From the NCBI RefSeq assembly GCF_000003815.2, contig NC_049980.1, forward strand, positions 8,665,431 through 8,729,430: DNA of 64,000 nucleotides, written 5' to 3'. This DNA comes from Branchiostoma floridae. Its lineage: Eukaryota > Chordata > Leptocardii > Amphioxiformes > Branchiostomatidae. The notes beneath the pieces are model-generated. The model saw only the letters and a program-made list of their open reading frames with translations, was not told where the DNA came from and did not search any database. The position numbers were made by a program, and so were the translations under genes. Positions 21,149 to 63,086 of the stretch are shown one piece after another (position 1 is the stretch's first letter; each line of letters opens with the position of its first letter).

Positions 21149-21154
21149 TTTATT
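21149..21154 (-). terminator. Candidate poly(A) signal of the HECT gene
   Basis: AATAAA on the minus strand about 210 nt beyond the stop codon at 21367. Confidence 0.4.
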
Positions 21155-21366: not shown

Positions 21367-24300
21367 TCAAGTCAAGTTGTACTCCCACGCAGCACTGTCC
21401 TCCAGTAGAGTCATCCACACATGGTTGAACTCCTCCTGAGTAGAACACTCCTGGAACGTGGGGAGGGCGATCTCGTTAAAGCAGGTGTGGGACTCGATGC
21501 CGCGCACCCCCGGGTCCACTCGTACCTTTATCTGGTCCATACTGAGGAGATTACTCCCCGTTACGTACCGTAGAAACTTCCTGCAGACATCCTCGTTGGA
21601 GTTGTACAGAAACGACGTCAGCATGGAGAAAACCCTCGGCCCCTCCCCCCTCTGACTCTGAGTGGTTAGTTCCAGTTTACCGATGATGTTGTTTGCGGTT
21701 GGCTGCAGCGACGAGTACAAAGCGTGGATGTCCTCCGTGGTCACCTGTTTGAAGACCTCGGCACTCGCTTCCCCGAAACCGGACGCGATGCCCAAAATGG
21801 CGGACTTTGGTTCCTCGAAAACCTTGAACTCTGCCACACGGTGGAAGATCTCGGGAAAATCTTCGAAAGTTGGCACCGTCTGAATCTCACAGTTGATGAG
21901 GAAGTCTCTGAGCTCTGTCTTGTTGGACTTGAAATTTTCCGGTGTGTAGTTGTCGAACAGGGATTTGAGCATGGTTCTCTCTGTTTCTGTCAGTGTGTTG
22001 AGGAAGGCCTCCTGGACGGCTGGCTTGGCTGGTTTCTTGTCCAGAATATGCAAAGTGATGACCTGAACAAAGACACAAATGTAATGCTTAGTCTGTATCT
22101 TTTGCTTATTACTTTGAAGTACCATTCTTTGTATCCTCCGTAAGTGTCACAGTTACTAGAAACTAAGTTTCTAGTACATGTGTACCATTTGCTGCAAGCA
22201 CTATGAAGTGACTGTCTTCAGGCACAGGCTACGTTTTTAGCAGACTGATACCAGGCCGACAGCTGGTGTCTTTGGTGGCTCTGTATCTGTATCTGTGTAT
22301 CAAAACACAGTACTGTAAATGCATTTAAGTTCGCGGGGATTTAATTTTGCGGTAGCGGGAAAAAGGACTTTTCTCAGTGGTTTTAAGTTCGCCGTAACAC
22401 CATAGACTGCAGTCTAATACCATGATAGAAAAATGTTTGCAGTGGGTTTTTTTTCAGTTAAGAGGTCGCCGCAAAAACCGCGAACATTAATACACCGTGA
22501 ACATTTCTGCATTTACAGTATATGCACCAATCTAATCTAGAACTCTTGGTAGTTTAGCCCAAGCCAGTTTTGGCTAGCCCTGGTCAAAACTCCCACAGGC
22601 TAAACATCCCCGGAACACTAATTTGATTGGCAGGTATATCGCCGCTACAGTTGCCAGCCCGCATTGTTGGTCTGGCACCCAGGGTTGGCAGAGGTACACG
22701 TATGAAATATACACTTTTCAAAAGATCTACAGGATCTACATCATATGATTTGAGAGCCCAACACTGTAGTCTTACCTCAGGGATGACATCCACAGGGTAG
22801 TGCCCAACCAGCACATAGCAGTGACACAGCGCCCTCCCCACGGCCTCCCAGTACCTCTGGTTGTACTCGGGGGTGGAGATGGGCAGGCGAACATCCGACC
22901 CTGCCGTGGACTTCTGCTTCACCGCCTCCCAGAAGATGGTGAACATCTCCCTGCTGACTCCCTTCACATCCACGGATGGCTCACCCTGCGGTGATGGGAA
23001 TGAACATAAACTATGAGCCATGATCTGAGCGAAGTCTGACATGTAATAGACTGTGATCTGTGCTTTGATGCAATTTGAGCATTAACTACATGTAGGTTGC
23101 CTATATGGAGCATGTCACCGGAACGTACTGCACCTGCGCGAACCCTGGTGTTTTGGGGCTTGGTTTGGTCAACGTTGCATTGAAATACCGCTTGTTGCAC
23201 AGTATATGTTAGAGACATGGTTTCATGTAAAACGTACACGGGATTTTACCCTTATATACGCACGTACTTTCTTAAAACTCTCACGGGGATGCCCTAACAT
23301 CGGCTCCCGGTCCATCCGCCTTGCCGTGGTGTGAGAGCCCGAATGTACCAATCTCCCAGTCCCGGGGTAGGTGCCACATTCCTACTCTGTAACCTCGAAT
23401 GAGGGGGTGGAGCTTGGGTAGTCGCTAAAGGATGGACCTGCAAGCACCCCAACCCAAACCAGCACGTCTCCATCTCCATGGTGCCGCTGGAGAAGGCGGG
23501 TGCCCAAAGTGCGTGGGTCCCAGGCCGCATCCTGCGATCCACCTTAAACAAATTCACGCAAAGGCTTTCATGCCAGAACTAACAGTCTCAACCTACTTCC
23601 ATCACTCCCAAAAGTCCCGTGGCGATGGTACTCTGGATGACGGGGACAGGCCTGGTCAGCTGGAAGTCTCTAGTCCGGAGCCACACACTGGCGGCACCTG
23701 TGTGATGGTCGTCCTACCCTCAAAGCTGTGGTGACGTGGTAGCTCGGCAGCTGCAGGTGTGACTGGGCTGGCCTTTTTAGGAGTACTGCAGCCCACTCCA
23801 AATGGAGAGACCCCTAGAAAAGGTGGGGTAAACATCGGTCACCACAACCTCCCCTGACTGGCAGACCGTGGCCAGTGGGGACCTACTTCTGCGGTCAACA
23901 CCCGAGAAGAAAAGCTAAACCTAAACCTAAATTGAACCCTTTCAAGGTGGGGGCTTGGAATGTGAGGACCCTCATAGACCATGATGATACAGAGAGACCA
24001 CAACAACGTACTGCTCTTGTGAGTCGAGAACTTGATCGCTTCAACATTGATATTGCTGCCCTCTCCGAAACAAGACTTGCTGGAGAAGGAAGTCTGTCTG
24101 AAGCTGGAGCTGGGTACACTTTCTTCTGGAAAGGGAAAAGTGCTGAAGAGCGGCGGATCCATGGCGTAGGCTTTGCGGTCAAGAGTTCAATTGTGAATCG
24201 CTATAACCTGGTCCCAACCGCTATAAACGAACGTCTCATGACCCTCCGTGTGCCACTCCCCGATAATAACCACCTGACTCTGATTTCCGTCTATGCACCA

Positions 24301-27300
24301 ACCCTTGACTCTGAGGATGATGCCAAGGAGTCTTTCTACGCTGTGCTGAACCGTACCATCCAAGCTGTCCCCAGCAGAGACAAGCTCCTCGTGCTTGGAG
24401 ACTTTAACGCCAGAGTGGGTCGTGACCACAAACTCTGGAAGGGCATTCTGGGCAAGCAGGGTCTTGGCTCATGCAACTCCAATGGACTTCTCCTTCTTGG
24501 CCTATGTGCTGAAAATGAGCTGGTCATCACCAACTCTCTCTTCCGGCTGCGAAATCGTCACAAGACCACGTGGAAGCACCCGCGGTCAAAGCACTGGACT
24601 ATCCTCGACTACATCCTGACCCGGTCACGTGACCGGAGTGATGTCCTAGTGACCCGCAGTATGCCCGGTGCAGATGATTGTTGGACAGATCACCGCCTCC
24701 TCATATCCCGTCTCAGACTTCGACTGCGTAACCTTCCTCGCCACAACAGGCCAGTAAAGAGGGAACGTCGCTTCAACGTCGCAAGGCTGAAGACCCCGGG
24801 AGTCCAGGAGGACTACTCCAACCGTCTCACAGAGCTCCTGGGTGAGGCACCACCATCAGACCAGTCGGACTCTGTAGAAGTGGACTGGTCCGTGCTTCGT
24901 GGCAACATCAGCAAGGCTGCAGAGGATGTTGTTGGCTACTGCAGTCGCTCCCATCAAGACTGGTTCGATCAAAATGACTCCGATATCCGAGATCTGATAG
25001 ACCTGAAGAGATCTGCTCGTCTCGCATGGGAGAACCGCCCTACCCGCGCCTCCCTTCGACGCTTCAAGAAAGCAAAGCAGGAGTGCCAGTGAAGGGTCCG
25101 AGAGATGCAGAACCTCTGGTGGCAAGACAAGGCAAAGGAGATCCAGTCCTATGCAGACAACAGAGATCTCCGGCGCTTCTATGCAGCAACAAAGGAAACT
25201 TACGGCCCTCGTCGAGGAGGTACGAACAACCTCCTGACTGCAGACGGAATGACAGCCCTTACAGACGACTAAGCCATCCTTAACAGGTGGAGAGAACATT
25301 TTCAGACACTCCTAAACCGCCCATCGTCTGCGGCTGAAGACTTGCTCCGTAAGGTACCTCAACACGATGTTAGGCAGTGGATGTCTCTTCCCCCATCTTA
25401 TGCTGAGTTCCAGAAGGCGTTGAACCGCATGAAAGCATGGAAGGCCCCAGGTCCTGACAGCATTCCACTGGAGCTCATCTCTCATGGGGGCATAGCTGTA
25501 CAGACAAGGCTATTCATCCTGATCCTGCGCATGTGGGAGATGAAGGTTGTACCTGCGGACCTGAAGGATGCCACCATCATCACCATCTTTAAGAAGGGGG
25601 ACCGCTCCATCTGCGGAAACTACCGCGGTATCTCTCTCCTGAGCATTGCTGGAAAGATTTTCGCACGGATTCTGCTAGACAGGCTCCTGACTGTTGCCGA
25701 GGAAGTCCTTCCTGAGTCACAGTGCGGTTTCCGACCATCTCGTGGTACCACAGACATGATATTCTGTGCCCGCCTACTTCAGGAAAAATCCCGCGAACAG
25801 CGACAACCACTCTTCTTGGTCTTCTGGGACCTGGAGAAGGCATTTGACAGCGTCCCAAGACCAGCTATGTGGGCAACCCTGAGGCGTTTTGGCTGTCCTG
25901 ACCACTTCACAGACCTTGTGCAAGCCCTCCATGATGGGATGACTGGTCGTGTGGCTGTAAAGAACACTATGTCTGAGCCATTTGCCATCACTACTGGCCT
26001 GAAGCAAGGCTGTGTTCTGGCGCCAACCCTCTTCTCCCTTTACCTTGGGGCCATGATCCACGAGCTCCCCGACAACGCCTCCGGTATCCAACTTCGTTAT
26101 AGAATGGATGGAGGCCTCTTCAACACCGGACGCCTTCGCTCCCGCAGACACACCACTTCCTTCACGGTACGGGAGCTGCAGTACGCTGATGACAACGCAA
26201 CTCCTGTGGATACAGTCGACGCTCTTCAGAGTACTGTCGATGTCCTTGACGGTGCTTACTCCCGCTTCGGTCTCACTTCCAACATAGGGAAGACAAAGAT
26301 GTGCACAGGGAGCTCCGGGGCATCCTCCTCCTGACACTAGTAACATCCGACTCCGAGGTGAAGTACTAGAGACAGTGAAATCATTCCCCTACTTGGGAAG
26401 CTTCCTCTCAGATGACTGTACGATGCAGAAAGACATTGACAATAGGATTCGGGCTGCACATGCAGCTTTCGGGAGGCTCTCCAAACGTGTCTTCCTAAAC
26501 CATGACCTCAGTCTTCAAACAAAGATCATGGTTTTCCAAGCCATTGTCCTGTCTACCCTCCTATATGGCTGCGAGGTGTGGGTCCTGTATCTGAGAGATG
26601 TGAAAAAGCTGGAGCGTTTCCAACAGCAAAAACTCCGTGCCATTCTGAAGATAAAATGGCAAGACCGTGTCTCCAACGAAGCTGTCCTTCTCCAGGCCAA
26701 GCTCCCCAGCATTGAGACTACGATGGCGCAACATCGTCTCCGCTGGGCAGGACACGTCAAAAGAATGCCTACAACTCGACTTCCTCGCCAGATCCTATAT
26801 TCCCAACTAGAATCCGGCACAAGGTCGCGAGGAGCCCCCAAGCGTCGGTTTCGCAACCAGTTAAAGGCTACCCTCCTTCGTTGTGACATTGACCACACTA
26901 ATTGGGAGAGTCTCACGGAGAACCGGTCTGAGTGGAGACGCACCATAACGCAGGGGACTGATCACATGGAGCAGTTACGACGCTCCGAAGCCGAGACAAA
27001 AAGACAACAACGCAAAGAGAGACTACTACTTCCTCGCTCCCCACCCACTCTGCCCTGCACAAAGTGTCCCAGACTGTTCCACACTGCCCTGGGACTGAGC
27101 AGCCACCTCAGACACCGCCACCAACAATCAGCAAATGAGACTGGATGGACATGAACTAATGCTCGGTCACGAGCTGACGCCGATGATGAGCATGTCTATA
27201 CTTTTCGCGCAGGCGCAGTACGTCCCGGTGACGTGCTCCTATATGGGAGTCTGGGCCTACACAAATTGCCCTGATTGGCTAGTGAGAATTAGCCATTGTC

Positions 27301-30300
27301 ATCTGATTGGCTGGTGAGAGTAGCCAGCTATTTCACTCCTGAGTTGAGCTAGGAGGTTGCACATGTATTAGACTAATCAGTCAGTTCATGCCATCAATGA
27401 CCGTCCAATGACCCTATGAGTTTGTGATCTTGAGTTGTTTTTGTTATTAAGTATGAGTTGTTATTCTTTTGAGTGTTCCTAAGTTGCTTATATGATTTAC
27501 AAATCCGAATTGGATTATTGCTTTGTTATGTGCAATCCTATGTTAGCAGTTATCTTTTGTACTTTGAGTTATTATTATTGTTATAGGGCTCCATTGGAAA
27601 TCAGTTACTACGTTAACTGAAGGGACTACCCTAAAGATCAATAAATAAATAGAATAAATAAATCAGGTATGTGTACATGTTCATGCTGGTTAGTCTCTCT
27701 ATAGTTGTAGATTGTTGTACTTAAACAAACTATCTCAGTAGTGATACCATCTACAGCTGGTATTACATTAGATGCCCAACCTACCAGTTAGTATTTTTGG
27801 TGCTTGTAACCAGTACTTGTTCTTACCTTGAATGTGACCCTGATCTGATGTGTCCAGGTCCTCTTGTCTGTGTCAGAGTACAGACCGATGACGTCTGAGT
27901 GGATGGAGTCCCGGCTCACGGTCACGCTGTGCTTGTGGTAACCTTGGTTCATGGCCAGCTGCTGTCTCAGGCTGTCCAGTAATGCTGTCCCTCCTGAGAT
28001 TGAACTTCCTGCTGATACACCTGGGGCTGTGCTCCTGGGGAAAAAAAACACTGTAGTTTAATCTTAGTTCTCATAGACTTGATTTTGCAGTAGGAGAGAA
28101 AAAAAGCCATTTGTAGTGTTTCAAGTATACAGTAGAAACAACGTTAACTGTTGCAATGTAGTGTAAGACAGAACATGTGTTTGCACTATGAGGGTACGGA
28201 CACCACTGGGGGTACAGACACTACTGGGAGTACAGATACTACAAGTATCCGTACCCCCAGAAGTGTCATTACCCCCAGAAGTGTCATTACCCCCAGAAGT
28301 GTCCGTACCCCTAGTATTGTCCGTACCCCCAGTAGCGTCCATACCCCCAGTAGTGGCCCTACCCCCAGTAGTGTCCGTACCCCCAGTAGTGTCCATACCC
28401 CCAGTAGTGACCCTACCCCCAGTAGTGTCCGTACCCCCAGTAGTGTCCATACCCCCGGTAGTGTCCGTACCCCCAGTAGTGTCCGTACCCCCAGTAGTGT
28501 CCATACCCCCGGTAGTGACCCTACCCCCAGTAGTGTCCGTACCCCCAGTAGTGACCCTACCCCCAGTAGTGTCCGTACCCCCAGTAGTGTCCATACCCCC
28601 GGTAGTGTCCATACCCCCGGTAGTGTCCGTACCCCCAGAAGTGTACAGACACTTCCTGGTTTTAATGTTCACCTGTCAGACCGTCATTGCTATGGCAACG
28701 TCATTTTTACCAGTCTTGTTAGACATGGACTCCAACACACACTGTGCTGTACTAACCTGAGTGGAGGCCGGGTGAGACGACCAAACCGAGAGGAAATGTC
28801 TTCAACAGTCTCATCTGGTGCAGGATAGTCAACTCTCCTCAGAACTATGGGAGATTGAGACAGAAACACAAGAGAAGTTAAACGGCTGTGAGAGATGCTT
28901 AGAGTTCAATATTCAATAGTTTCAGTTGGACACTGAACAGGACTACATTGTATTTCCTAGGAGAAGTTGAATAGGCCACCTACGTCAGAGCCCATCAACT
29001 ATCCCTCAACAGAGATGGGCGCTGAAACTGTTTGCTGGCACCTCTAACCTGTTGGTGTCGTTCCACTTCCGGTCTGGTTACGCGACATTGGTGTTGAGCT
29101 CAAAGTCCAATTATTTCAAAGTATCATCAAGATCTACTCACAAACAAAATATCCAGACAATGAATCCATAAGTTACTGTTCATCCACAAGTTTGGACTCC
29201 AGGCTAAGACAAGTGAGTGTCATAAGAATTTAAGGCATGAGAAGATGAGAAGCACAAGTACCTCTGCACATGACACAGATGGGGCTGAGCCCAGTGTTGA
29301 CGTACGTGCACCTGTGGCACACCCAGGTTATCCTGTCTCCTTCGTCTGGAAGGACAAGACTTCTTTCAGTAAAAGTAGTTACACCACAATCATGCATTTC
29401 ATCATTATATATCATAATCATGTAGTCCCCTCAAAAGTGGAGATCCTGTAAGCAAATCATTTTTAAAAAGAACAGGTGAAACTGGATAGGTAAAACTTTG
29501 GGATGCAAAGAAGCAGGAAGAGCACACATACACGGGGCAGAGAGATGTCGAGAACAAGGGCAAAGGAAGTAGCAAGGATAAAAGCAAAGACGCCAGAAAT
29601 TTAAAGGAGTGGAGGTTGAGGGAAGGCCATAGGGTAGACATGGAAAACACATGTCCATGTAAGTCTCTTTACAAATATGGTAGGACATATTGGAAGACCC
29701 AAACTATGTCAGTGCAGAAATGTCCCACTTATACCCCATATCAATCCTCCAAACCTAACATGTTAGACGTCTTCTGCACTGTAGCCTAGGACTACATTTT
29801 GAGTTCTATAGGATATGGACACATTGACACTACAGCAGCTGCTATGGATATGGAAGTGACACATGATCTCAGCGCTAAGAAATGATACTGCTCATCTCCT
29901 CAATATTTCCTTTCATAACATCAGAACATGATTACTGTCCCTGCATACCTGCGCTGTCCTCTGTGATGCTGTCCTCTGGGGCACTGCTGTACTCCTCCCC
30001 ACTGTCCTCAGAGGAAGGTCCGACAGTCTCCCTCTCTGACTCTGGCTGTAGTGCTGAAATAACAGTTGTGGTTAAACATATTCCTGCTAAAACAAGAATT
30101 GTTTTGGTCCAGATTAGGTCTTTCTTCTTATACTAAATTCCCAAAATAGGTTTATCTGGTAAATAGCATATATTCTAACTTTGCCCTAAAAATTTTACTG
30201 AAAGTAAGCCAAGTTGTTGTGTATTCGGTTACCATCCCGATAGAAATGGAATGGATTCTCTTTTCTTTTTTTTCTTTTTTCTTAACTTAGATTTTGGCTG

Positions 30301-33300
30301 AAGTGTCTTAAAAAATAGTTTAAAAACCTAAAACTGAATTGCTTCAGGCCCTGTTTTTTTTAATATCATGCATCTTTATCATACAATTATACATAATCTA
30401 ACCACTGAGATATCATGATCAGATGGAAAATTTTATATTGGTTGCCAGGGGTACACAAAAAGATACTAGGTTCTGTCAGCTTTTGGTAGACTTGGTCGGG
30501 CTACCGGGAACATACTTTTTTCCAGGCCTAAGAAAACTCTCATTTCAATGTTGTGACCCCTTGCGCAAAATGAACAGTTCTACACTTATTTTTACACAAG
30601 ATTTAATCTACTGCAAAGTTGCCAGCTAGGGATGCTTGTAATGCAATTGGCAAAATTAACAACACATTACAGACAGACTACCACAAATTACTTAGAAAGT
30701 CATAAAGGTGGTGATACATACCTATGTTCTGAAGAGTTGAGCCCAAAGAAGGAAGGTTACCTATGAAACTGGTGTTTCTACTGTCTGTAAAACAAAGGAA
30801 AGTCGCATCATGAAAATCAAAGACAGTAGCAAAATGTTGGTGTGATATATAGGTAACCTCATCCCTATTCTAATAATACATTGTTATGCCACTGTGACAG
30901 CAAAATTTCTGTTAAAACTCTGTCTTGCCATCCCTCTTCTTAAGCTGCATTAAATGCATATTTCAATACATTTACTAGCTTTTCTCTACTAAGACTAAAT
31001 ATGAACAGACCTTTTGAAAATTAGCTAGAATCTCTAGAAACTTACATGTACCCAGAGTCTCTCCTGTACATATTCTCAACCGTAGCCTTGCAATCCTTAG
31101 CTGTAGTCTTGCAAAGTCCATCTATGACCTGGGCCTTTAGCAAATAGACACAGCTACTCTGCTGATAACACTGCTACATACTAGTACAGTCACTCAAGTC
31201 TTATCCTGGTAATGTCACCCATGTAAGTAACCTCTTGCAACATGATAACCAACAAATGAGTCATTTCCTGTGAGGACTGCTTTAAACTGACCAAAATCAT
31301 ATTCCCAGGTTGAAGATCCCTTGGGATCAAATTTAAACCAACAACAATCATAGGGCCCACATCAATTCTGTATATCAATTCTGAATTTTGAAGACCATAA
31401 TAAATTGTACAGATGCAAAAGAACTAAAATAATGTATTAAAGCTTCCAGTAAAAAATAACGCAATTGTATGTTGGACACTCACTGTAACACATCTCGCAG
31501 TGGTGACGCCATTCTTCATTCAGGTAGGTACACTGCACGCATGGCCAGAGCGTACTCCCACCTGCAAAACAAAATCAGTTCTCAAGCTTCTTGTTCATAG
31601 CTTCAGTGGTTTGTGACCCTGTCTTTAGATCTGTGTCAAGAGTTTGGGAGTTCAAATCAAACTGTAAGTGTGTTCAAGCAGCTCACCCAACATGGATGCT
31701 ACTGGAAATGCCTCCAGTCCTTATAGGACATGATGTTAAGCTGATGCCTTTGGTTCATTGTACTTGTCAAAAAGAGCTAAGTGTAATCACAATGTACTTG
31801 ACGAATGTGTGAACATGTTTCTACCATTGGGGTGACATTAGGATGATCAGATTTCCTTGATGAGATGAAACCTGACAGATCAACTGCTAGTGAATGTTGA
31901 GCCAAGGGAAAATTAGCCAACCACAAGCCACACTGTGGTGAACTTATTCCAGTGGGACTATCTTATGGCAATGGAGGGATCATATTTCACTTCAGCAACA
32001 CAATCAGGGATCAAGGTTATCATAGCCTATTTATACTTCCTGTTCCATGAGTCAGATTTGTACAGATGACACAGAAATGGTTTGCATAATGTGTATTACT
32101 GAATCCGCCTAAGTACTTGTTTGTCTGAAGAAAATAACATTTTCACTAAATCACTTGTCGAATGAGTACTCTGAATCTTATCATTCTTTTCCCAAAATAA
32201 CAATGACTTCCTATGATATTTTACAATCTTCATTTTTGACAATCTTCATTTTTGTTCATTGACAACTTGTGTAGAACAAGTTGCCATGCGCAATGTAAAT
32301 ATCAAGCCTTGTCTTCATGACATCTCAATAGCCTTATCTATGGTAATTAATATGTAATCACAAAGAGATCAATTCCATATACCTGCTACATTTCCTGTCT
32401 CCTGAGTAGTGTCAGTAGGCATGACTGATTCTGGGTCCTCTAGGGGTTTGGGGACATCTTCTGCTGTACCCAAGTCAGTAGATGGAACGTCCTGTTGGTC
32501 AATGTGCCAATAGAACATTGTCACATTATTTTTCAAAATCAAAACTCACAAAGTTCAAATTTATTAGGCACCTGCAATTTTCAAAATCTATTAGACTTAT
32601 TAGGCACCTGCAATTTTTATTCATTGTTTATCAGCACATAAAACAAAGTTGGTTGGCTTAATAGATCACAGACATAGAACCAGGCTTTTAGCTAGAATTT
32701 TATATTAGGGAGTCCAAACTTATTGGTGAGTCGCGGTAAGTGACTATTGTAGGGTAGTCTGGGGGCATCCACCTTCCATGGTGCAGAGTTTTTGATGATT
32801 TTAAGTTAAAAAAGTGCATTCTTAGGTATCCCGGCCAAGAGGCAAAAATACTGTTCCAGAGGTCACAGTAGAAGACTGTGACCACAGATGACCTGGTAGC
32901 ATCCCTGGTCAATCAGAATTTCATGCTTGTCAGACATTTTCTCCCCAGTGTAAGGGCGTCCAGGGGCATCAAATTTCTTGTTATTCTAAGAAAAGTGCGT
33001 CCAGATGACGTGTTGACGCATGCCTGGCTAAAAAGCCTGCATAGAACCTGCAAACTCTGAAGATTATTTGAACTACTGTAATTTGCATGTAACGTTATTT
33101 GTGGTCATATGATGCAATCAAATCCCATATCAATTAAGGTACATGGAAACCAAATACTTAGTTCAAACTAATATCAATCATAAAAGCAAAGTAGAAGAAA
33201 TAAAGACCAAAATTTTTTAGTAGATATAAAGAAAACATGAGGAAAAAGCAAATCAGAAGGAAGTGCTTTCAAATCTCTTACTTAAAAAAAAAAGTCATCC

Positions 33301-36300
33301 TAAAGTTACACCCACCTGCAGATGAAGTGATTCCATCCCACCTATCAACTCATCCATCCCTCCATCCTGTCCTGGTGTGTTCCTCACCCCTTCCCCACCC
33401 TCAGCTCTACCTCCAGCCACCCCATACTCATCACTGGGAGGCAGCACCATCCTCTCATCATCATTGGTATCATCCTTCTGTTCTGACGGTGTGGGAGTCT
33501 CTTGGGGGTTGCTAGCATCTCTCTCTTCCTCATCACCAGACACACCGCCACTTGCATATTCTGTGACACTCTCAGTCTCTACTGTAGGCACTTCAGGTTG
33601 TTGACCTTTTGTTAAGTCCGTGTCTTCAGTTGTCCCACCTTCACCATAAACAACAAAGTCACTAAGATCAGGTGATGTCCTCCCACTTTCATCTCCAGAG
33701 TCTCTCTTTTCGTCCCCCGGGACTTCATGTGATGATGCTGGAGAATCTGATGGCACAGTAGTTGTCTGCCTATCCCCCTGTGTAGCCCCGTCTACTGTAG
33801 GTGACTGAATGGAACCAGCACTGGTGTCTCCTAATGTTGGATATAATGGCACATGGGATTGGTGACCAGGATCTTCAGCAGCAGGTGGATGGTTATCAGA
33901 GGGGTATGCTGGGTAAGTTTGCGGTACCGGACCCGTGCCTTTAAATCCCTGCACAGTAGGAGGCTGTGACCCGGGGTATGATACAGGTGGTGCAGGGGGA
34001 ACTGGAGGTAAAGGTGCTGGTGGATGTGGTGGTTGTTGCTGCATGTAGTTCACAGGTGGAACAGTAGGGGGCACTGGTCTAGGGACTGGTGGAGTCATCT
34101 GTTGTGGCTGACCTTGCCGAGCTGCCATTTGCTCTGCAAAGAGGGACAAAGAGTTACGATCCTTTAATGGTACAAGTAGCATATTCATTTTGAATTAAAG
34201 CTCTGTGTTCAACAACATCACAATAGTTTGATACAAGAATAGTGAGTGAGTGAGTGTATTAAACTTAGATTGACTGAAATTCAAATATTTACTCTCATCC
34301 ACCCTCATTCTTGTGCTCTGAAATTGTCATCTTTAAAAAATATGAAGATTTACATTAACAATTATATCCTGTACAAGAATAAAACTGATCAAAACTTGTG
34401 CATCAAGTGTAGTAAGTGAATATGATGACTAGCACAAAAATCTTCCCGTTCAAAATCATTTACATAAAGGATAGTTTCAGATATGATTTATATTAGCATC
34501 AAATTTATGGTTTAGAAGATGAAATGATTGTTAAGTGATTCATATATTGATGTTTCTTCCTAATATTCTCATTTTGTTCATATTTGGCCGACATTGGAGC
34601 CTCTTCCAATCAGCTATGGATTTGATCAATTTGAAATTCTTCAGTTCAGAGAAAACAACGGCACCTAGTGGCGGTGCTGACGGTATAACTGCTGCGGACT
34701 GTACTGCAGTGTAAGGTGGAGGGGGGTCCTGTACCAGGGTGTAGGGTGGGGGGGTTGGACAAGACTCTGATGATAGAAACAAAATGTAACACCTGTATTG
34801 TCACTGTAACAGTTACATCAATAGTCTCAAGCTATTTGTACATACAACACAATTGCTAAAAAGGATATCTAGTATATTTTGACTATGTTAATTACAGTAG
34901 TTTAGATTTAAAAATGATATGTCCTCACTAATGTAATGTAAACTGGTACATTGTACTTGAGAACGGTGAGGGGTGGCGCTTCAGTTGATAAGAGAAATTT
35001 ACCATTATGAGTTGCCCGAAATTTGATCACACCAAATAATATATAGATGCTGAAAAAAATCATATTAGAGATTATGATATTGCCTTACCTTGTTGATACT
35101 GGTTTGCCCGTTGCTGGGCCCTTGCCCTTGCTAACTGCTCATACCTGGAAAAGACAGAAACACTCTCCTCTTATTACTGAGGCTCCGTCTGTTCATGGTA
35201 TGAACTTTAGCAAATCTTTAGCAAATCATAAAGATGTCACCTTAACTCAACGTTTGCAAATGCATCTGTAAGCGGTGACACCTAGTGCTACAATGCAATG
35301 TGGACCAGTCAGAATTGCCCTGAGGAAGGTGGCAAATGGTCACCTAGTTGGAATAATCAAAGCACTTTACATTCCTGCATATAAAGTTGACAACATTGTC
35401 TAAGCTTCAAAGCCTGGATTTTTACATGTTTAAAACTTATATGGCAAATAATACATTCAGCTCCTATATTGTTTTCCAACGTAATTTATAAAATGACACA
35501 ATTCAAAGTCAAAAGAGTGTTTGTGAATTGTTCCTTTGGAAAAAAATCCTTAATAAAATAATGTATGTACAGTATACAAACAGGTGTCACCATGAGCTAG
35601 TCTCAATGTGTATAAATAAGAGCCACAAGATATCTCTCACCTGATTTTCAAGCTTTCTTTCAGCCTCTCGGCCTCCTGAATGGCCTTCATGCCAGCTGGA
35701 GACCTCATGGAGAACAGGGGCACCACAAGCTCAGGTTGTTGTTCCTACAAATCAGACACAAGGAATTAAATTCATGTAAGCATTGATCTCAAATATCTCA
35801 ATTTCATGTCTGTTCATGATCTACAAAATTTGAAATGTAATAGGTGGGGGGATGGTAATGTAAAGATACTGAGTCAAAGAAATGAGGAACGGTGCTCTTA
35901 GAATCAATCAAACAAATGCTAATATCACAATAAAAACAGGGTCAAGTAGCCCGTTACGGATTTTCAAACCTACAACAGTCACAAAGAGCCCCATTTACTA
36001 CATGGGGACCTTACTGACTAATGAAAACAGACTTTAATTCTGAAGAACACTGTAATTCTTATTTGTAACAATGTAAATTGCAAATGTTTTTAAGTAAATC
36101 TTGTAAACCAGTCTGTTTAAGGCTGCCCTGAGGCCTGCCTTTGTTGTTCTTGAAATATGAACCAGTCATCATCATCAAATGATCACAGTAACACGCTGGT
36201 TTCAATTTCTACCATCTTACTACTAGTGTGGGATACTCTGAAAAGCGCAAAATTGCTTAGAATACTAGGGATGCTATGTGTACGGCNNNNNNNNNNNNNN

Positions 36301-37103
36301 NNNNNNNNNNNNNNNNNNNNNNNNNNNNNNNNNNNNNNNNNNNNNNNNNNNNNNNNNNNNNNNNNNNNNNNNNNNNNNNNNNNNNNTTGATAGGCTGAGA
36401 ATCAGACTAATCGCATGTAGTACACAAAGGCCTTCTCCTCATCCCCCACCTGCCCTGCTGCCTCAGCTGCTGCAAACAGCTTCTTCGCTGTTTCTGCATG
36501 TCTTAAAATATCATACAAAAACTCTTTGAAAACATTTCAATATCTATCAGACATCTTCCTCAAAGCTTCTAACTGGATCTACTTCTCGCTGCTATATGTA
36601 GCCAATGTAGAAATTACAATCAGTATGACCTACCAACATGATGAAATTATTTTCAGATATTCTACAACTATTCCACTGTATAAGTACTTAGTACGTTGTA
36701 TCCTAGAATTGCACAGACCTATGACCCCAAATGCAATGTAGTTAATACATGGAAATTGTGATTGAAATAGAAGGGGAACAATGAATTAAATATGTCTGAT
36801 GTTTGGCTTATGATACTACAAATTAAACTATGTAAGTTTGAACATAATGTATTTGTTTCATGTCCAATGAGTTCCAGTCAGTAGGCTAGAATATACGTCT
36901 GCAATGAACCATTCATTCACTCAATACAATTAGCCAAGCAAAAGCGTCAGACCATGGTCGTTGAAGCTTAATGTAAAACTTCATGACGAATATAAAACAT
37001 ACTTCAATATCCAGCCTCCAGCCTTAAACTCCACGTCTGCCAGTTGGTGGAGGGAGTCAAAGTCATTGGCCAGGTACAGCGTCTTCTTGGGCTGCTGGGT
37101 CAT
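21367..37103 (-). CDS. USP8-N-like dimerisation domain / PPxY / double NZF / HECT E3 ubiquitin ligase
   Basis: Fifteen exons in order: 37003-37103, 36408-36501, 35641-35744, 35089-35144, 34665-34766, 33316-34133, 32383-32491, 31484-31561, 30722-30784, 29949-30053, 29262-29345, 28757-28844, 27827-28034, 22776-22985, 21367-22062 (TGA). They give about 971 residues and every junction keeps phase. Residues 1-118 resemble the USP8/STAMBP N-terminal dimerisation domain (KKTLYLAND, AKKLFAAAEAAG, GDEEKAFVYYMRL, AIQEAERLKESLKIRYEQL). Residues 119-152 hold two PPPY motifs; 153-425 are Pro-rich, then acidic. Two RanBP2/NZF fingers follow: WPC-x2-C...HCEMC near 465 and WVC-x2-C...ICVMC near 550. A HECT domain fills about 600-971 (VTFKGEPSVDVKGVSREMF; HTCFNEIALPTF with the catalytic Cys near 934). 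The predicted role is ubiquitin transfer on endosomal or ubiquitin-bearing cargo, which is inference. The exon-2 donor (gtctga) is weak and abuts an N gap, so a small exon may be missing. The ATG at 37103 is chosen because it precedes the first USP8-like residues. Confidence 0.8.
22311..22520. mobile_element. MITE family A, copy 3
   Basis: It runs from TACTGTAAATGCATTTAAG to TGCATTTACAGTA. The interior GTTCGCGGGGATTTAATTTT and the complementary CCGCGAACATT form a long hairpin. It lies in the last intron of the HECT gene. Confidence 0.82.
23270..27663 (+). mobile_element. Full-length but decayed non-LTR retrotransposon (LINE), antisense in HECT-gene intron
   Basis: This element lies in the intron between the last but one and the preceding exon of the minus-strand HECT gene, in the opposite orientation. 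About 600 bp of 5' leader (roughly 23270-23874) precedes an endonuclease/reverse-transcriptase reading frame. An approximately 500-bp 3' region ends in an (AATA)-type tail, AATAAATAAATAGAATAAAT, finishing at 27663. The 5' limit is approximate because no target-site duplication could be fixed by eye. The protein resembles the family often mis-annotated as craniofacial-development-protein-2-like. I could not decide its clade (RTE-related is the best guess). Confidence 0.9.
23875..27154 (+). pseudogene. LINE endonuclease-reverse transcriptase, with two stops and one frameshift
   Basis: An apurinic-type endonuclease (EEP) domain comes first: VGAWNVRTL, ALSETRL, ISVYAPT, LGDFNARVG, LDYILT and WTDHRLL. 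Reverse transcriptase follows: KAPGPDSIPLELI, YRGISLLS, QCGFRPSRGTTDMI, the palm motif DLEKAFDSV, GLKQGCVLAPTLFSLYL and the catalytic QYADD. The C-terminus has a C2H2-like finger (CTKCPRLFHTALGLSSHLRHRH). The frame is broken by TGA at 25090-25092 and TAA at 25270-25272. A frame change occurs between about 26290 and 26375, after which the last third is read in the next frame. All catalytic motifs remain, so decay is recent, but this copy is unlikely to be autonomous. An in-frame methionine near the beginning is not evident, and the true start is uncertain. Confidence 0.88.
28190..28640. repeat. 18-bp minisatellite with an orientation switch
   Basis: The unit is GTGTCCGTACCCCCAGTA, with variants CAT/ATT/CCT for CGT and CGG for CAG, repeated about 22 times from about 28243 to 28640. 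From 28194 to 28240 two to three units run in the opposite orientation (GGTACGGACACCACTGGG), so the array switches strand at about 28241 and can fold. It lies in the intron between HECT-gene exons 28757-28844 and 27827-28034. Because the unit is a multiple of three and stop-free, long open frames arise on both strands. I treat these as a by-product, not genes. Confidence 0.95.
36287..36386. other. Assembly gap (100 N)
   Basis: It lies 21 bp downstream (in gene direction) of the HECT-gene second coding exon and may hide a small exon of the USP8-like domain. Confidence 1.
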
Positions 37104-44561: not shown

Positions 44562-47500
44562 TCATCCAAGTATGTCCACATCTAGACTCTCCTCCTCCTC
44601 TTCTTTTACCCTCTGCAAATTAAGGACCTGGCAGAAAAAGTACAATAGAAATGTAGTATTAGACATTTAATAGAACCTATAGTATTATCCACCCGCGACC
44701 GCGAGTGATAGTATTATCGTATTTGCAAATCCCTACATTGTTCTCATTTGGATATAAACATGAAACTAAAACACTTTTACAATAATGCAGAATTTTTTCT
44801 CGGTGGCCTTTAGTCAGGCTACTGGCTCGCCCTCTAGAACTATGTGCGAGTAAAAACAACCGTACGTCTACTTGGTTTTGGGACCAGGTCATTAACAATC
44901 ATAATTATACTACATGTATACCATTAGGCTTGCCCTTTAGTATTATGTGCGAGTAAAAAAATGCTCATATTTACAATATACAGCTAACATGCTTAACACA
45001 GTTTTAAGCTCCGTTAGGCTTCTGACTGAAAAAAAAGAAGAAATAAAAAGAACACACCACAATGTTTTCCCTACCATGGTACTTCATAAGGCCACACCAA
45101 TTTAATTTCTTGGTTCTCGGATTTCCCGGTCCATGTTTTTCCAATTTTGAAAAAAAAATTGGTCCCAAGGAAAACAATATACTCTTAGGTCCCTGAAATA
45201 AACGTACCGGGACATTTATTTTTTTCAGCCACAAAATCCACCCGGTGCGTTCTTATATTGGACGGTACGTTTATTAAGTTTTTGAAAATTAGAACAGGGA
45301 CCCCTGAAATAGTGAAAATTTGGGATTTTTTGCCCATATTTCCTTGTTTTTTTTTGTTGTCATATAAGCCTCATCTGTTCACCCCAGACTTTTTGCAAAA
45401 TTTTATTTTTCATTTATTTTCCACCGGCCGACCCAATATTTTTCTGCAAAAAAAACGAGAACCAAGAAATTAAATTGGTGTGGCCTAATGAGTAATTACA
45501 TACCTCCTCCTTGCCAAAAAATCCACTTCTTTTCTCCTTCATGGCCTGTCTGTGTTCTTTCTTCTGTCTCTGTCTCAGTGCTTTCAGCTGGTTTCTTCTT
45601 TCACGAGATTGTCTCTACAAGGGGAACAAGTACAGGCTTTGACTGTGAGATTCTTACTTACGCAAGGCAAAGACACAAACTTTTAGCTTTGATACCTCTT
45701 CATGTTTGTAGTTGTAAAGTTAAAGCTTTGTTCCAACAGAACACAAAGAAAGGAACTCACCATAAAGTTTTGGTCAAACTTGTTGACCTTCTTCAGATGT
45801 AGGTTCCCATCTTTGCATGGGAACAAAGCTTAAACTTTACAACTATGGATCCTACCAACACAGATGAGCTTTCATTCAAACTTTACTTTGTGTACGGATA
45901 TACTTTATAAAGTTTGAGATGGTAACATAATGTTCATGCGATGCTTAACTGACCTTTGATTCCTTAGTCTTCTCCGCCTGAGTCATGGCGTGCACATGGC
46001 CATCGCTGGAGCTGCTGCAGCCACTGCTGCTGGACTCACTGCAGCTGCTGGAGGCCGAGCTGCAGTCTTTACTTCTCTTGTCTATACAAGTCTTCACATA
46101 GTTCCGCACCTGCTGCAGTTTCTCATCATCTATCACATCTAGATCTGCATGGGAGGAGAAACGTGGGTTAGTACAGTCTTTACTTCTCTTGTCTATACAC
46201 GTCTTCACATAGTTCCGCACCTGCTGTAGCTTCTCATCATCTATCACATCTAGATCTGTGTGGGAGGAGAAACGTGGGTTAGTACAGTCTTTACTTCTCT
46301 TGTCTATACACGTCTTCACATAGTTCCGCACCTGCTGCAGCTTGTCATTGTCTATCACATCTAGATCTGCATGGGAGGAGAAACGTGGGTAAGTACAGTC
46401 TTTACTTCTCTTGTCTATACACGTCTTCACATAGTTCCGCACCTGCTGAAGCTTGTCATCGTCTATCACATCTAGATCTGCATGGGAGGAGAAACGTGGG
46501 TTAGTACAGTCTTTACTTCTCTTGTCTATATATGTCTTCACATAGTTCCGCACCTGCTGAAGCTTGTCATCGTCTATCACATCTAGATCTGCATGGGAGG
46601 AGAAACGTGGGTTAGTACAGTCTTTACTTCTCTTGTCTATACACGTCTTCACATAGTTCCGCACCTGCTGCAGTTTCTCATCGTCTATCACATCTAGATC
46701 TGCATGGAAGGAGAAACGTGGGTAAGTACACTACAAGACTGTTTCGTCTTGAAAGGATGTTTAAGAAAAATGTCACACTAAGAATTTGAGACTGTCTTCA
46801 ACAGGTAATGCTGGTTATATACAGTGCTGCATATCTGTACACCAGAACTGGACTTTTTCGGTTAAAAAAAGCAGAGAACCTGTTCTGGAACAAAAACTGT
46901 CTTTCGCTCATACTCTCTTTTTATTGTAAACCTTCTAAAACCCCCTTCATAGATTGTAAAATTTGTGCTGGAAACAAGATAAAAACATTGCTATGTTTGT
47001 TTTTATTACTTAGCTCTTGTGTTTACTACTTTATTAACTCTATAATTTTGCATGTAATAACATACAATGTAACATGTACCTGACAAAAGTATTTCTAGCA
47101 CACATGCCATGGCATGGGTTCAAGTCCGGACTTAAGTAAACATGAACCTAAACCTCTGGACCTGAACCTGAACATGAGATTAGGTAAGTAGCACTAGTTG
47201 TATTTGACTGTTTGCAAGCCTTAAAGCCAACATCTCATATCACAGTAGAAGTTGGTAGTTATAACTTGCAGTGTTTTTCTGGCACCACTGGTAAGACCTT
47301 CAGGCAATAACGACACTGCAGGAAGACCTGCTGTGGTGCGTTTGGCAACATCTAACCTAATCTCCAAGCAGATCCTACGGTAGCATACGATAGTATCAAA
47401 AGCTGGCAGAGGAGTGAAGCTGGCTTAGGAGCGTGTTTCGCTACCGGAGCAAATGACTATTTCCTGGCCAGTTTGGTACTCTTATGCCATTGTAGGATCT

Positions 47501-60098: not shown

Positions 60099-63086
60099 TC
60101 ACACAGAGGTTTCACGCGCAGGTACCAGTAGAATGCCAGTTTCAGCCTTCTCGGTGTCGCCCATGTCCGTCAGTGACCCCGAAGTGTCCGTCGGTCGTTT
60201 CTTCCTGAGTCGCAGAAGGAACGGCAAGAGTCCGGCCAGTAGGAACCCAGCGCCTGCCTGGAGAAACGTGGCGTCGTAACTTTTGGTCTCGTCGAACAGC
60301 CAGCCTGGACAAACATACAGGGTTTAATAGCATTATTACCTTCGCCAGAAGGTTATGTTTTAGTGTCTGTCCGTCTGTCTGTTTGTCAACATGATAACTA
60401 GAGAAGACCAGAATGGAGTGTTGGGTATGTGGACTTGGTGAGACCTGGAAATATCAATCCCTAGATTCGCTGGCGGCTTGTTACGGAACTGCCGTGGATC
60501 TTCCTGTTTTTGTATCTTTTCATCTGAAGATGTCACGGTCACCACGTCATAGTGGTAGATAGCTCTAATTTATGGAAAGAAGTGGCTTAAATTTTAGCTC
60601 CCTACCAGCTTGTTCTGGAAGTGCAGGAGCATTTCAAGAAGGAATTGGTTGTTAAGATACTGTCCTGTAATACTGCATGTCTTGAACCAAAGGTATGCCT
60701 AAGTTCATTTGAAATATTTTCAGCTTAAGATGCATCAAATGCCTTAGTATTCATCTTTACTAACCTGCAAATGGCGGTCCAGACAGCGACGCGAACCCCT
60801 GTACGGACATCAAAATTCCAATTGCACTGGGAAGACGTTTCGGGCCTACGAGTTCGGCAAGACACGTCAGTGAGATCGGGATAAAGGCACCATAGAACAC
60901 CCCGTGCGCGATAGCGTACGCCACGAGCGCCGGGTACGTCTTGGCTAGGGGAGATAGAAGGTTGGAGATGCCCAGCAGACACAGACTCAGTCCAAACTGA
61001 TCCAATCGGCCGAACCTGGAGTTGTCCGGAACGGCCCCGACTGCCAACCGACTGACCATGTCTGCGATAGAGATGACAGAGAGGAGAGAGGCCGCGGTGT
61101 AGTCCTCGATCTGTAGGTACTTGGCGCGAGGAACGATGTACAACGGCGGCACTATGAGACAGAACGAAACTATAAACATCGACGTCAAGAACAAGGCCAC
61201 CGCAGGTATCTTCATAACTTTAAAATCCATCTGTGCCCAGAAAGTTTTGAGAAAGTCCATTGTAGCTGCTGACCACTTCTTTGTCGTGTTAGTTTCCAGA
61301 ACGGTGTCCGAGTTGGTCATTCCGTTCTTCCCTGGCTTCTCAGCAGTCTTAGGTCCATTTTCGACTTTCCTGTCACTGTAGGCCTCGAGAGGTCTGATCA
61401 ATGCCCCCGCTACGACCATATTGAGCATGATGCCGCCTATGATGAGCAGAGCTCCCTTCAGACCATAGTCGTCCATCAGATACTGGAAGAGCGGTGGGAA
61501 CGACATGGAAGTGACACTGGAGCCCAGCAGGGTCAGGCTGTTGGCTAGAGCGCGTCGTTTGGTGAAGTACTGCCCGACAATCGCCATGGCGGGACTAAGA
61601 GTGAGGGCATATCCAAGGCCTGTTTGGAACAACAAAGAAAGAGTTATCATTAGCCTCATTTGCAGACCTCTAGCGGCGATTTGACAGGTCACTGAACGAA
61701 TTTGATAGCTATTTAATTAGAGAACGATTTTTTAAATTTACTTTTACATCTTGCACCAATCTTGTTGTTAAGGGTTACGCAAATCCATTTTTGCTCGCTG
61801 TCGTTCGGTGAACGCCGTGTAGTGGACACACCATACACACATGTATGGGATATAGGTTGGTTAGTCTAATGATATTTCACGTCATGAAAGCCCATCTGTG
61901 TTGGTAGTAATCATGATAGTACAATGCTAAACTTTCTTGACGTAAGCAATTGCAAATGGTCAAACGCACAAGGAAGTTTATAACGAGGGGGGGGTCTCTG
62001 TTCACTGATGAGTGTTCTGATGTATACCTAGCTCCTTTATACATCTTACAAAGCAGTCTTGTTCAGTGTCCAGTATTCTGACTTTGTGCAGTGAAACGTT
62101 AAGGCCCGTTGATTCAATGTGGTTGTGTTGAGAGACTTCCAACGACAATGGACTTGGGCATTTGTATTCAAAGAATCTAATTGAGTTCTAAACTTCCCTG
62201 CACGTTTGACCAATTGCTGACGCAACGTATCCGCACGATCACGTGATAATGGGTCGCGGGGTTGTAACCTTGCGCGACTGAGTTTACGTTCTGAAGTGTT
62301 TGGTCATAAGTATTGATCCTGAAGTAGGCGAAAGTGCACGTGGTCATTGAAAATTTGATCCGTGTATACCTTTGGAAGAAAGTTTAGCATTGCACTATGG
62401 TATTTCACATCAATTGCGAAACAGAAAAACTAGAATTCGGCCATCAATGTTGAGAAATCCACAAGACCGACCTGTCAGACATCCTATACCCAAGTACAAG
62501 TGAAACATGCGGGTCGCGAAACCGCTGATGATGTAGCCTGCAGCCGACAGCACCCCTCCCAGCATGACGGTGGGGCGGAAACCTATGGTGCTCGCCAGGG
62601 CTGTACCAACCGGAGCTACGGAGAAATAATGAATGAATGAAGAAGACCTTTATTGCACATTTATCACAATCGCACAATCTTCCCCACCAACCTCTGAGAA
62701 TAAACACAATGGACCCAACAAAAGTATCTGTCTGGGGCGTCTTGGTGCGAATTTAAAAACAAAACAAACTCACTGACAAGTTGTTCCAGAAGTAAAACAG
62801 AATGATGACTTTACTGCTTGCACGATATCGTAAATACAATCAGGTGCGTGAAAATGCTGATGTTGAACTCACATAGGAAATACGTGACGCTCATCAGAAT
62901 AGAGGTTATCCACGCCGTCTCCGCCGAGCTGGCCTGGAACTGTCGGCTGAACGTCAGGAAGAAAACCCCGAGGGAGCGGAAGATTCCCGCCGTACAGCCA
63001 CTGACTATAAACGCGCCAACCACCACCATCCAACCCCATCCGCCGTCCGGGGGCTGGGGGGAGCTTTGGGGGGTCGGGCTCGTCAT
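60099..63086 (-). CDS. SLC16 / monocarboxylate-transporter-like MFS protein
   Basis: Four coding exons: 62873-63086 (ATG), 62472-62615, 60765-61619, 60099-60304 (TGA). Phases are consistent and give 472 residues. The N-terminus PPDGGWGWMVVVGAFIVSG is the MCT signature (DGGWGW before the first membrane helix). GLGYALTLSPAMAIVGQYFTKRRALANSL is the typical TM4-TM5 region. A charged central loop (about residues 205-245, RKVENGPKTAEKPG) separates two six-helix halves, and the tail is hydrophilic. MCT relatives move lactate, pyruvate, ketone bodies, thyroid hormone or creatine at the plasma membrane; the substrate here cannot be assigned. PPLYIVPRAKY and the MVSRLAVGAVPDNS motif are typical of the orphan/MCT9-12-14 side of the family. 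A candidate poly(A) signal lies about 190 nt beyond the stop. Confidence 0.9.

Follow-up and report, generated by a model that had tools for sequence, protein, structure and literature searches.

In human USP8 (UBPY) the N-terminal MIT-type domain is reported to bind ESCRT-III proteins (PMC12057046, PMC9477494) and to be essential for the recruitment of the enzyme to endosomes; its formerly proposed capacity to dimerise is considered doubtful, full-length USP8 having been monomeric in a recent study (both PMC12057046). The gene considered here, on the minus strand of a 64,000-nucleotide stretch of the lancelet Branchiostoma floridae (assembly GCF_000003815.2, contig NC_049980.1, positions 8,665,431 to 8,729,430; hereafter the window, to which all positions refer), appears to join such an N-terminus to two NZF-type fingers and a HECT ubiquitin ligase domain. 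With the USP8 of the same genome it shares the N-terminal MIT-type domain named USP8_dimer in Pfam, the start codon, the coding length of exon 1 and intron phases, but it has NZF fingers and HECT instead of the rhodanese and USP catalytic parts; a Pfam scan of the 971-residue model (four families) found no rhodanese, no USP/UCH, no C2 and no WW domain. STAMBP (AMSH), also an ESCRT-linked deubiquitinase, is likewise included in Pfam USP8_dimer, but in the STAMBP-like gene of the lancelet itself the introns interrupt the domain at different places (judged by eye), and that gene has a JAB/MPN frame. The NEDD4 family is likewise composed of HECT ligases and is generally placed in a pathway that meets ESCRT; unlike its members, the model carries PPxY motifs itself and no C2 or WW domain in the Pfam scan, and the best PDB match of its HECT domain is TOM1, a weak one. 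The RBR ligases HOIP and HOIL-1L also combine a ligase with NZF fingers, and finger 1 of the model resembles HOIL-1L next after NPL4, but their catalytic domain is RBR and not HECT.

No protein with the architecture USP8_dimer, NZF and HECT was found described in the open-access literature, as covered by titles and abstract openings. A survey of human MIT-domain proteins (PMC9477494) discusses four deubiquitinases with such domains, and its main text contains no instance of "ubiquitin ligase", "E3 ligase" or "HECT". Marin 2010 (PMC2837046) recognises 16 subfamilies of animal HECT ligases, with neither "RanBP" nor "zinc finger" occurring in the main text; RanBP and USP8 are likewise absent from the available portion of a further survey (PMC4327156), and none of the six terms sought was found in another (PMC11353290). 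We regard the architecture as a variant of HECT ligases, and its novelty in the sense of not having been found, rather than of having been demonstrated.

A USP8-type N-terminus on a chain of 15 exons

On the minus strand the gene model opens with an ATG at 37103 and closes with a TGA at 21367; its 15 exons encode 971 residues with no internal stop, all 14 junctions having AG acceptors and GT donors. The exon-start phases are 0, 2, 0, 2, 1, 1, 0, 1, 1, 1, 1, 1, 2, 0 and 0 for exons 1 to 15; since exon boundaries were picked with the reading frame in view, in-phase joining alone is no independent evidence. We interpret the locus as one gene encoding a USP8-derived N-terminus, NZF-type fingers and a HECT domain, an interpretation made on the DNA of one genome and to which we assign a probability of roughly 0.8.

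The evidence that ties the N-terminus to USP8 is of two kinds, similarity and exon structure. The USP8_dimer profile (PF08969) matches residues 1-118 with 40.9 bits and the full protein with 33.0, the cut-off being 24.6. A phmmer search of the PDB returned six chains at E ≤ 10, human USP8 taking the first two places (E 4e-8, residues 7-112) and the remaining four being unrelated. Beginning at the start codon, 65 residues can be aligned with no gap to the USP8 of the same genome, and 25 of them are identical; this number was reached in none of 100,000 shuffles, among which the maximum was 16. Exon 1 (37003..37103, residues 1-34 of the domain, phase 0 to 2, Pfam match from residue 5) has the same start codon and the same coding part of 101 nucleotides (nt) in both genes, and all three of the following intron phases (2, 0, 2) are common to them. 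Both phase-2 introns lie at the same aligned residue in the lancelet USP8, the second of them at an R-Y pair at exon 4 (35089..35144, RYEQLARARAQQRANQYQQ), while the phase-0 intron falls in an incomplete stretch. Exon 3 (35641..35744), which encodes the AIQEAERLKESLKIR portion of the domain, runs from phase 0 to phase 2, as does exon 3 of USP8. Common exon 1 length, start codon and intron phases therefore make the N-terminus USP8-type by descent, beyond mere similarity, and on this comparison of sequence and exon structure we read the relation to USP8 as one of common ancestry rather than chance.

The coding sequence of STAMBP crosses the first of these intron positions without an intron, in an alignment made by eye. 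Hence the "USP8/STAMBP-like" N-terminus of a preliminary description of this DNA narrows to USP8, the STAMBP half of that label being dropped. The same description had held that the exons join in phase as one chain, which is borne out at the DNA level by the stop-free model, and had considered itself refuted should residues 1-118 not match USP8_dimer; the profile match given above was obtained instead.

The whole assembly (513 Mb, 431 contigs) was searched with the USP8_dimer profile and yielded five matches including this gene, the others being one exon of USP8 and two of a STAMBP-like gene, all three on C3, and one match below the cut-off on C2. In the stretch that holds the lancelet USP8, frames for Rhodanese (24.1 bits) and for WW_USP8 (26.9 bits) exceed their cut-offs, and the STAMBP-like stretch contains a JAB frame in one exon, at 21.5 bits against a cut-off of 22.5. 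The presence of separate USP8 and STAMBP-like genes identifies the gene studied here as an extra USP8_dimer gene.

Linker, NZF-type fingers and HECT domain

Downstream of the USP8-type exons the model continues into a 307-residue linker. Exon 5 (34665..34766, phase 1-1) encodes PPPY at residues 124 and 134 and PSAP at residue 147; exon 6 (33316..34133, 818 nt) is proline-rich and then acidic, with YPTL at residue 250; and exon 7 (32383..32491, phase 0 to 1) continues the acidic linker. PPxY motifs bind the WW domains of NEDD4-type proteins, PSAP binds TSG101 and YPTL binds ALIX. The frequencies in 20,000 shuffles of the linker were 4.0% for two PPxY motifs, 9.6% for P[ST]AP, 6.4% for YPxL and 0.02% for the complete set (0.15% if at least one PPxY is asked for); they are suggestive only, because the motif set was chosen post hoc and shuffling ignores local proline clusters. 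A pattern for the SH3-binding motif of STAM was also sought in the model and was not found.

The two putative fingers are encoded by exon 8 (31484..31561) and exon 11 (29262..29345), both of phase 1-1, and are separated by linker exon 9 (30722..30784) and acidic linker exon 10 (29949..30053), again both of phase 1-1. The W-x-C-x2-C-x10-C-x2-C pattern is intact in both (WPCVQCTYLNEEWRHHCEMC and WVCHRCTYVNTGLSPICVMC), as is a CTY...M pattern, that is, Thr-aromatic...Met, the residues with which NZF fingers contact ubiquitin. Among 19 PDB chains retrieved at E ≤ 10, NPL4 (1nj3, E 2.4e-4) and HOIL-1L (E 0.0015) match finger 1 best and TRABID (5af6, E 0.017) matches finger 2 best, NPL4 being the only one below 0.001. 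The chains matched include NZF fingers of ubiquitin binders, namely NPL4, HOIL-1L, TRABID, TAB2/3 and RNF31.

Exon 12 (28757..28844) encodes further linker, exon 13 (27827..28034) linker and the start of the HECT N-lobe, where it aligns with the beginning of the HECT chain of TOM1, exon 14 (22776..22985) more of the N-lobe, and exon 15 (21367..22062) the rest of the N-lobe, the C-lobe and the stop codon. The Pfam HECT profile (PF00632) scores 30.0 bits on the HECT piece alone and 26.8 on the full protein, against a cut-off of 23.9. The predicted catalytic cysteine, Cys934 of 971, is encoded by the TGC at 21481..21483 and lies near the C-terminus in the context HTCFNEIALP, the (H)TCFN of which is aligned, in a weak piece, to SHTCFN of TOM1. 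An AATAAA at 21149..21154, about 210 bases past the stop codon, is a likely poly(A) signal and counts in favour of the model.

In the assembly, HECT matches at E ≤ 0.001 number 67 when counted exon by exon, and they include exon 15 (28.9 bits). NCBIfam gave no match to exon 15. The HECT domain of the model used as query returned four matches at E ≤ 10, three of which were this gene and one a frame on C220, so that no close paralogue is seen. The C220 frame (G000:C220:52207-52998, minus strand, the same as L031:9208-9999) has 264 residues and FSTCGL near its end, and over 160 residues its identity to the HECT domain of the model is 23% (E 0.008); no Pfam family matched it at E ≤ 0.01, and a HECT-like label for it therefore rests on that one weak match. 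A second haplotype or paralogue was also looked for with the 971-residue model, and this candidate was set aside, as 15 of the 18 assembly matches at E ≤ 1 were the gene itself and the other three were a TRABID-like gene (on C4, named by eye), a gene on C7 with five RanBP fingers, which by eye we take to be CAPN15, and the weak C220 frame.

One gene or two

The coding character of the exons was assessed with codon statistics trained on 1,136 codons from other genes of the same genome, using as null equal-length open segments of the introns, with the exclusion of introns 12 and 13 (repeat array and retrotransposon). The assigned frame scored highest in 14 of the 15 exons, exon 11 being the exception. 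For exons 6 and 15 no null segment was obtained in 200,000 tries; among the 13 exons that have a null, p ≤ 0.03 was found in 10, and p was 0.038 for exon 11. Linker exons 5 and 7 each reached p 0.0005. Since these two exons tie the USP8-like part to the fingers, their coding-like statistics, together with the exon phases, favour one gene over two. An earlier codon run was dropped for doubtful training frames; it ranked the assigned frame first in 13 of 15 exons and left exons 8, 9 and 11 unsupported (p 0.67, 0.34 and 0.42).

Several observations weigh against this reading and have to be set beside the above. Exon 9 is without coding signal (p 0.31, the weakest of all), exon 4 is weak (p 0.06) and exon 11 scores better in another frame; moreover, the training codons include parts of the lancelet USP8 and of NZF proteins (TRABID, CAPN15-like), so that the training set may favour exons 2 to 4, 8 and 11, but not exons 5 and 7. 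The PSAP, YPTL and PPPY motifs are short and were picked after inspection. The fingers score 18.4 and 21.4 bits with Pfam Zn_ribbon_RanBP (PF00641), and 20.8 in the full protein, where the cut-off is 27. The HECT domain is divergent: its profile match covers positions 84-286 of 306, within exon 15, and nothing before position 84; only TOM1 (1.1e-4) of 31 PDB chains at E ≤ 10 lies below 0.001, and this alignment consists of the N-lobe start and SHTCFN, pieces that are individually weak (0.039 and 55). For exon 15 by itself, modelled with no related sequences, AlphaFold2 returned a mean predicted local distance difference test (pLDDT) of only 39.

These scores also bear on what the preliminary description had claimed for this half of the protein. 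Its two PPPY motifs and its HECT domain with the catalytic cysteine in HTCFNEIALP are both recovered, the latter above the Pfam cut-off; PSAP and YPTL are additional to the motifs that it had named. Its two RanBP2/NZF fingers stand as regards the W/Cys4 pattern, present in both, and fall short as regards Pfam, both being under the cut-off. The profile check that it had proposed, with USP8_dimer, zf-RanBP and HECT, comes out above the cut-off for the first and the last and below it for the fingers.

The strongest alternative, which we consider unlikely, is that the strand carries two adjacent genes, one for a USP8 fragment that ends in exon 6 and a separate one for NZF-HECT that starts at about exon 7. 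An in-frame stop lies six codons past the donor of exon 6, intron 6 contains AATAAA at 32621 and 32565, which counts against a single gene as well, and the pyrimidine tract that precedes exon 7 is poor for an acceptor. However, the exon 6 donor is good-looking (CAG/GTGGGT, the slash marking the junction here and below) and of phase 0, whereas exon 8 needs phase 1, and the shift is supplied by the 109 nt of exon 7, which looks coding at the p value given above. A USP8 fragment with a proline-rich and acidic tail and no catalytic domain would, in addition, be odd.

Exon 2 and the assembly gap

The weakest point of the single-gene model is exon 2 (36408..36501), which encodes USP8_dimer residues 34-65, ends in GDEEKAFVYYMRL and is uncertain at its 3' end. 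Followed in frame, it reads ...DEEKAFVYYMRLV, then a TGA (36404-36402), then FSAYQ, and then enters an assembly gap of 100 N (36287..36386) that may contain the remainder of the exon; neither the TGA nor the gap is mentioned in the preliminary description. A mere 15 bases separate the TGA from the gap, and this, too, counts against the model, as a shortened domain or a broken allele is possible; left unspliced, a genuine TGA would break the protein. The modelled exon has 94 nt as compared with 145 nt in the lancelet USP8, with about 17 domain residues missing beside the gap. Two readings of the junction stand side by side: in the first, splicing at the weak-looking donor GTCTGA, one codon ahead of the TGA, shortens the domain; in the second, the exon continues within the gap and the TGA reflects a wrong or an allelic base. 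With either, the frame into exon 3 is kept. At the other end, the acceptor must be TTTTAAG/ACATGC, which keeps the frame and coincides with the USP8 intron position; an alternative acceptor eight bases downstream, CATGCAG/AAACAG, was rejected because it leads to a frameshift and stops.

It is on this TGA that a pseudogene or broken allele would build, with the stop after MRLV being real, the protein ending at 66 residues and the HECT part being either untranslated or translated from an internal start. The TGA is indeed present in the assembled sequence, but it lies 15 bases from the gap, the other 14 exons are stop-free over more than 900 codons, mostly with coding-like codon use, and a GT one codon before the TGA would splice it out in frame; we judge this explanation improbable. 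That unrelated contigs were joined at the gap is hardly credible, as the gap does sit between exons 2 and 3 but exon 3, beyond it, continues the same domain with the intron phases of USP8, and the assembly is free of other gaps all the way from there to exon 15.

Other features of the window

Intron 13 contains a retrotransposon on the strand opposite to the gene (23818-27151, plus strand; endonuclease frame, Exo_endo_phos 46.9 bits; reverse transcriptase frame, RVT_1 108 bits), and intron 12 a tandem repeat with a unit of 18 bases in about 22 copies (28194-28644). Elsewhere in the window, a long open frame at 60763-61716 (minus strand) matches MFS_1 with 90.9 bits and, below the cut-off, a monocarboxylate transporter subfamily. 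A further open frame at 45948-46730 (minus strand, 261 residues) yields 23 matches in Pfam, spread over families as unrelated as BEN and FAM199X, and is probably repetitive or low-complexity sequence.

Proposed origin and mechanism

For a single gene of this composition, the most likely origin appears to be exon shuffling, in which the start codon and the MIT/USP8_dimer exons would have been duplicated from the 5' part of USP8 and joined to phase-1 NZF exons and to a divergent HECT ligase. Five of the 13 internal exons (5, 8, 9, 10 and 11) are of phase 1-1. According to PMC4284660, lancelets gain new domain pairs unusually rapidly, at more than 10 per million years, and their shuffled exons favour phase 1-1; at such a rate a lineage-specific fusion becomes believable, and hence less astonishing.

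Given its homology to the MIT domain of USP8, the N-terminus would be expected to bind ESCRT-III tails and to take the ligase to endosomes, as for human USP8. The PPPY, PSAP and YPTL motifs could add contacts with NEDD4-type WW domains, TSG101 and ALIX, the NZF fingers may recognise ubiquitin attached to cargo or present in the product chain, and the HECT domain would add ubiquitin through Cys934. The result would be a ubiquitin writer located where USP8 and STAMBP erase. We hold this full mechanism as a tentative proposal, with at most even odds of being correct in all its parts. A bolder version, possible but rather doubtful, has the captured deubiquitinase module steering the ligase to ESCRT-III, where it would vie with USP8 for identical CHMP tails and one lineage would have acquired a writer and an eraser with a shared address; the fingers would then read ubiquitin and the HECT domain write it, and the PPPY/PSAP/YPTL set would turn the protein into a hub that docks at several ESCRT entry points simultaneously. 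That the putative ligase may act as an antagonist of USP8, as the preliminary description had suggested, is an inference.

If the single-gene interpretation is true, this natural fusion of MIT and HECT would represent evolution placing a writer at the address of an eraser, and would illustrate clearly how fast exons are shuffled in lancelets, as has been reported. It would also allow a direct test of whether ubiquitination at ESCRT-III counteracts USP8 and STAMBP.

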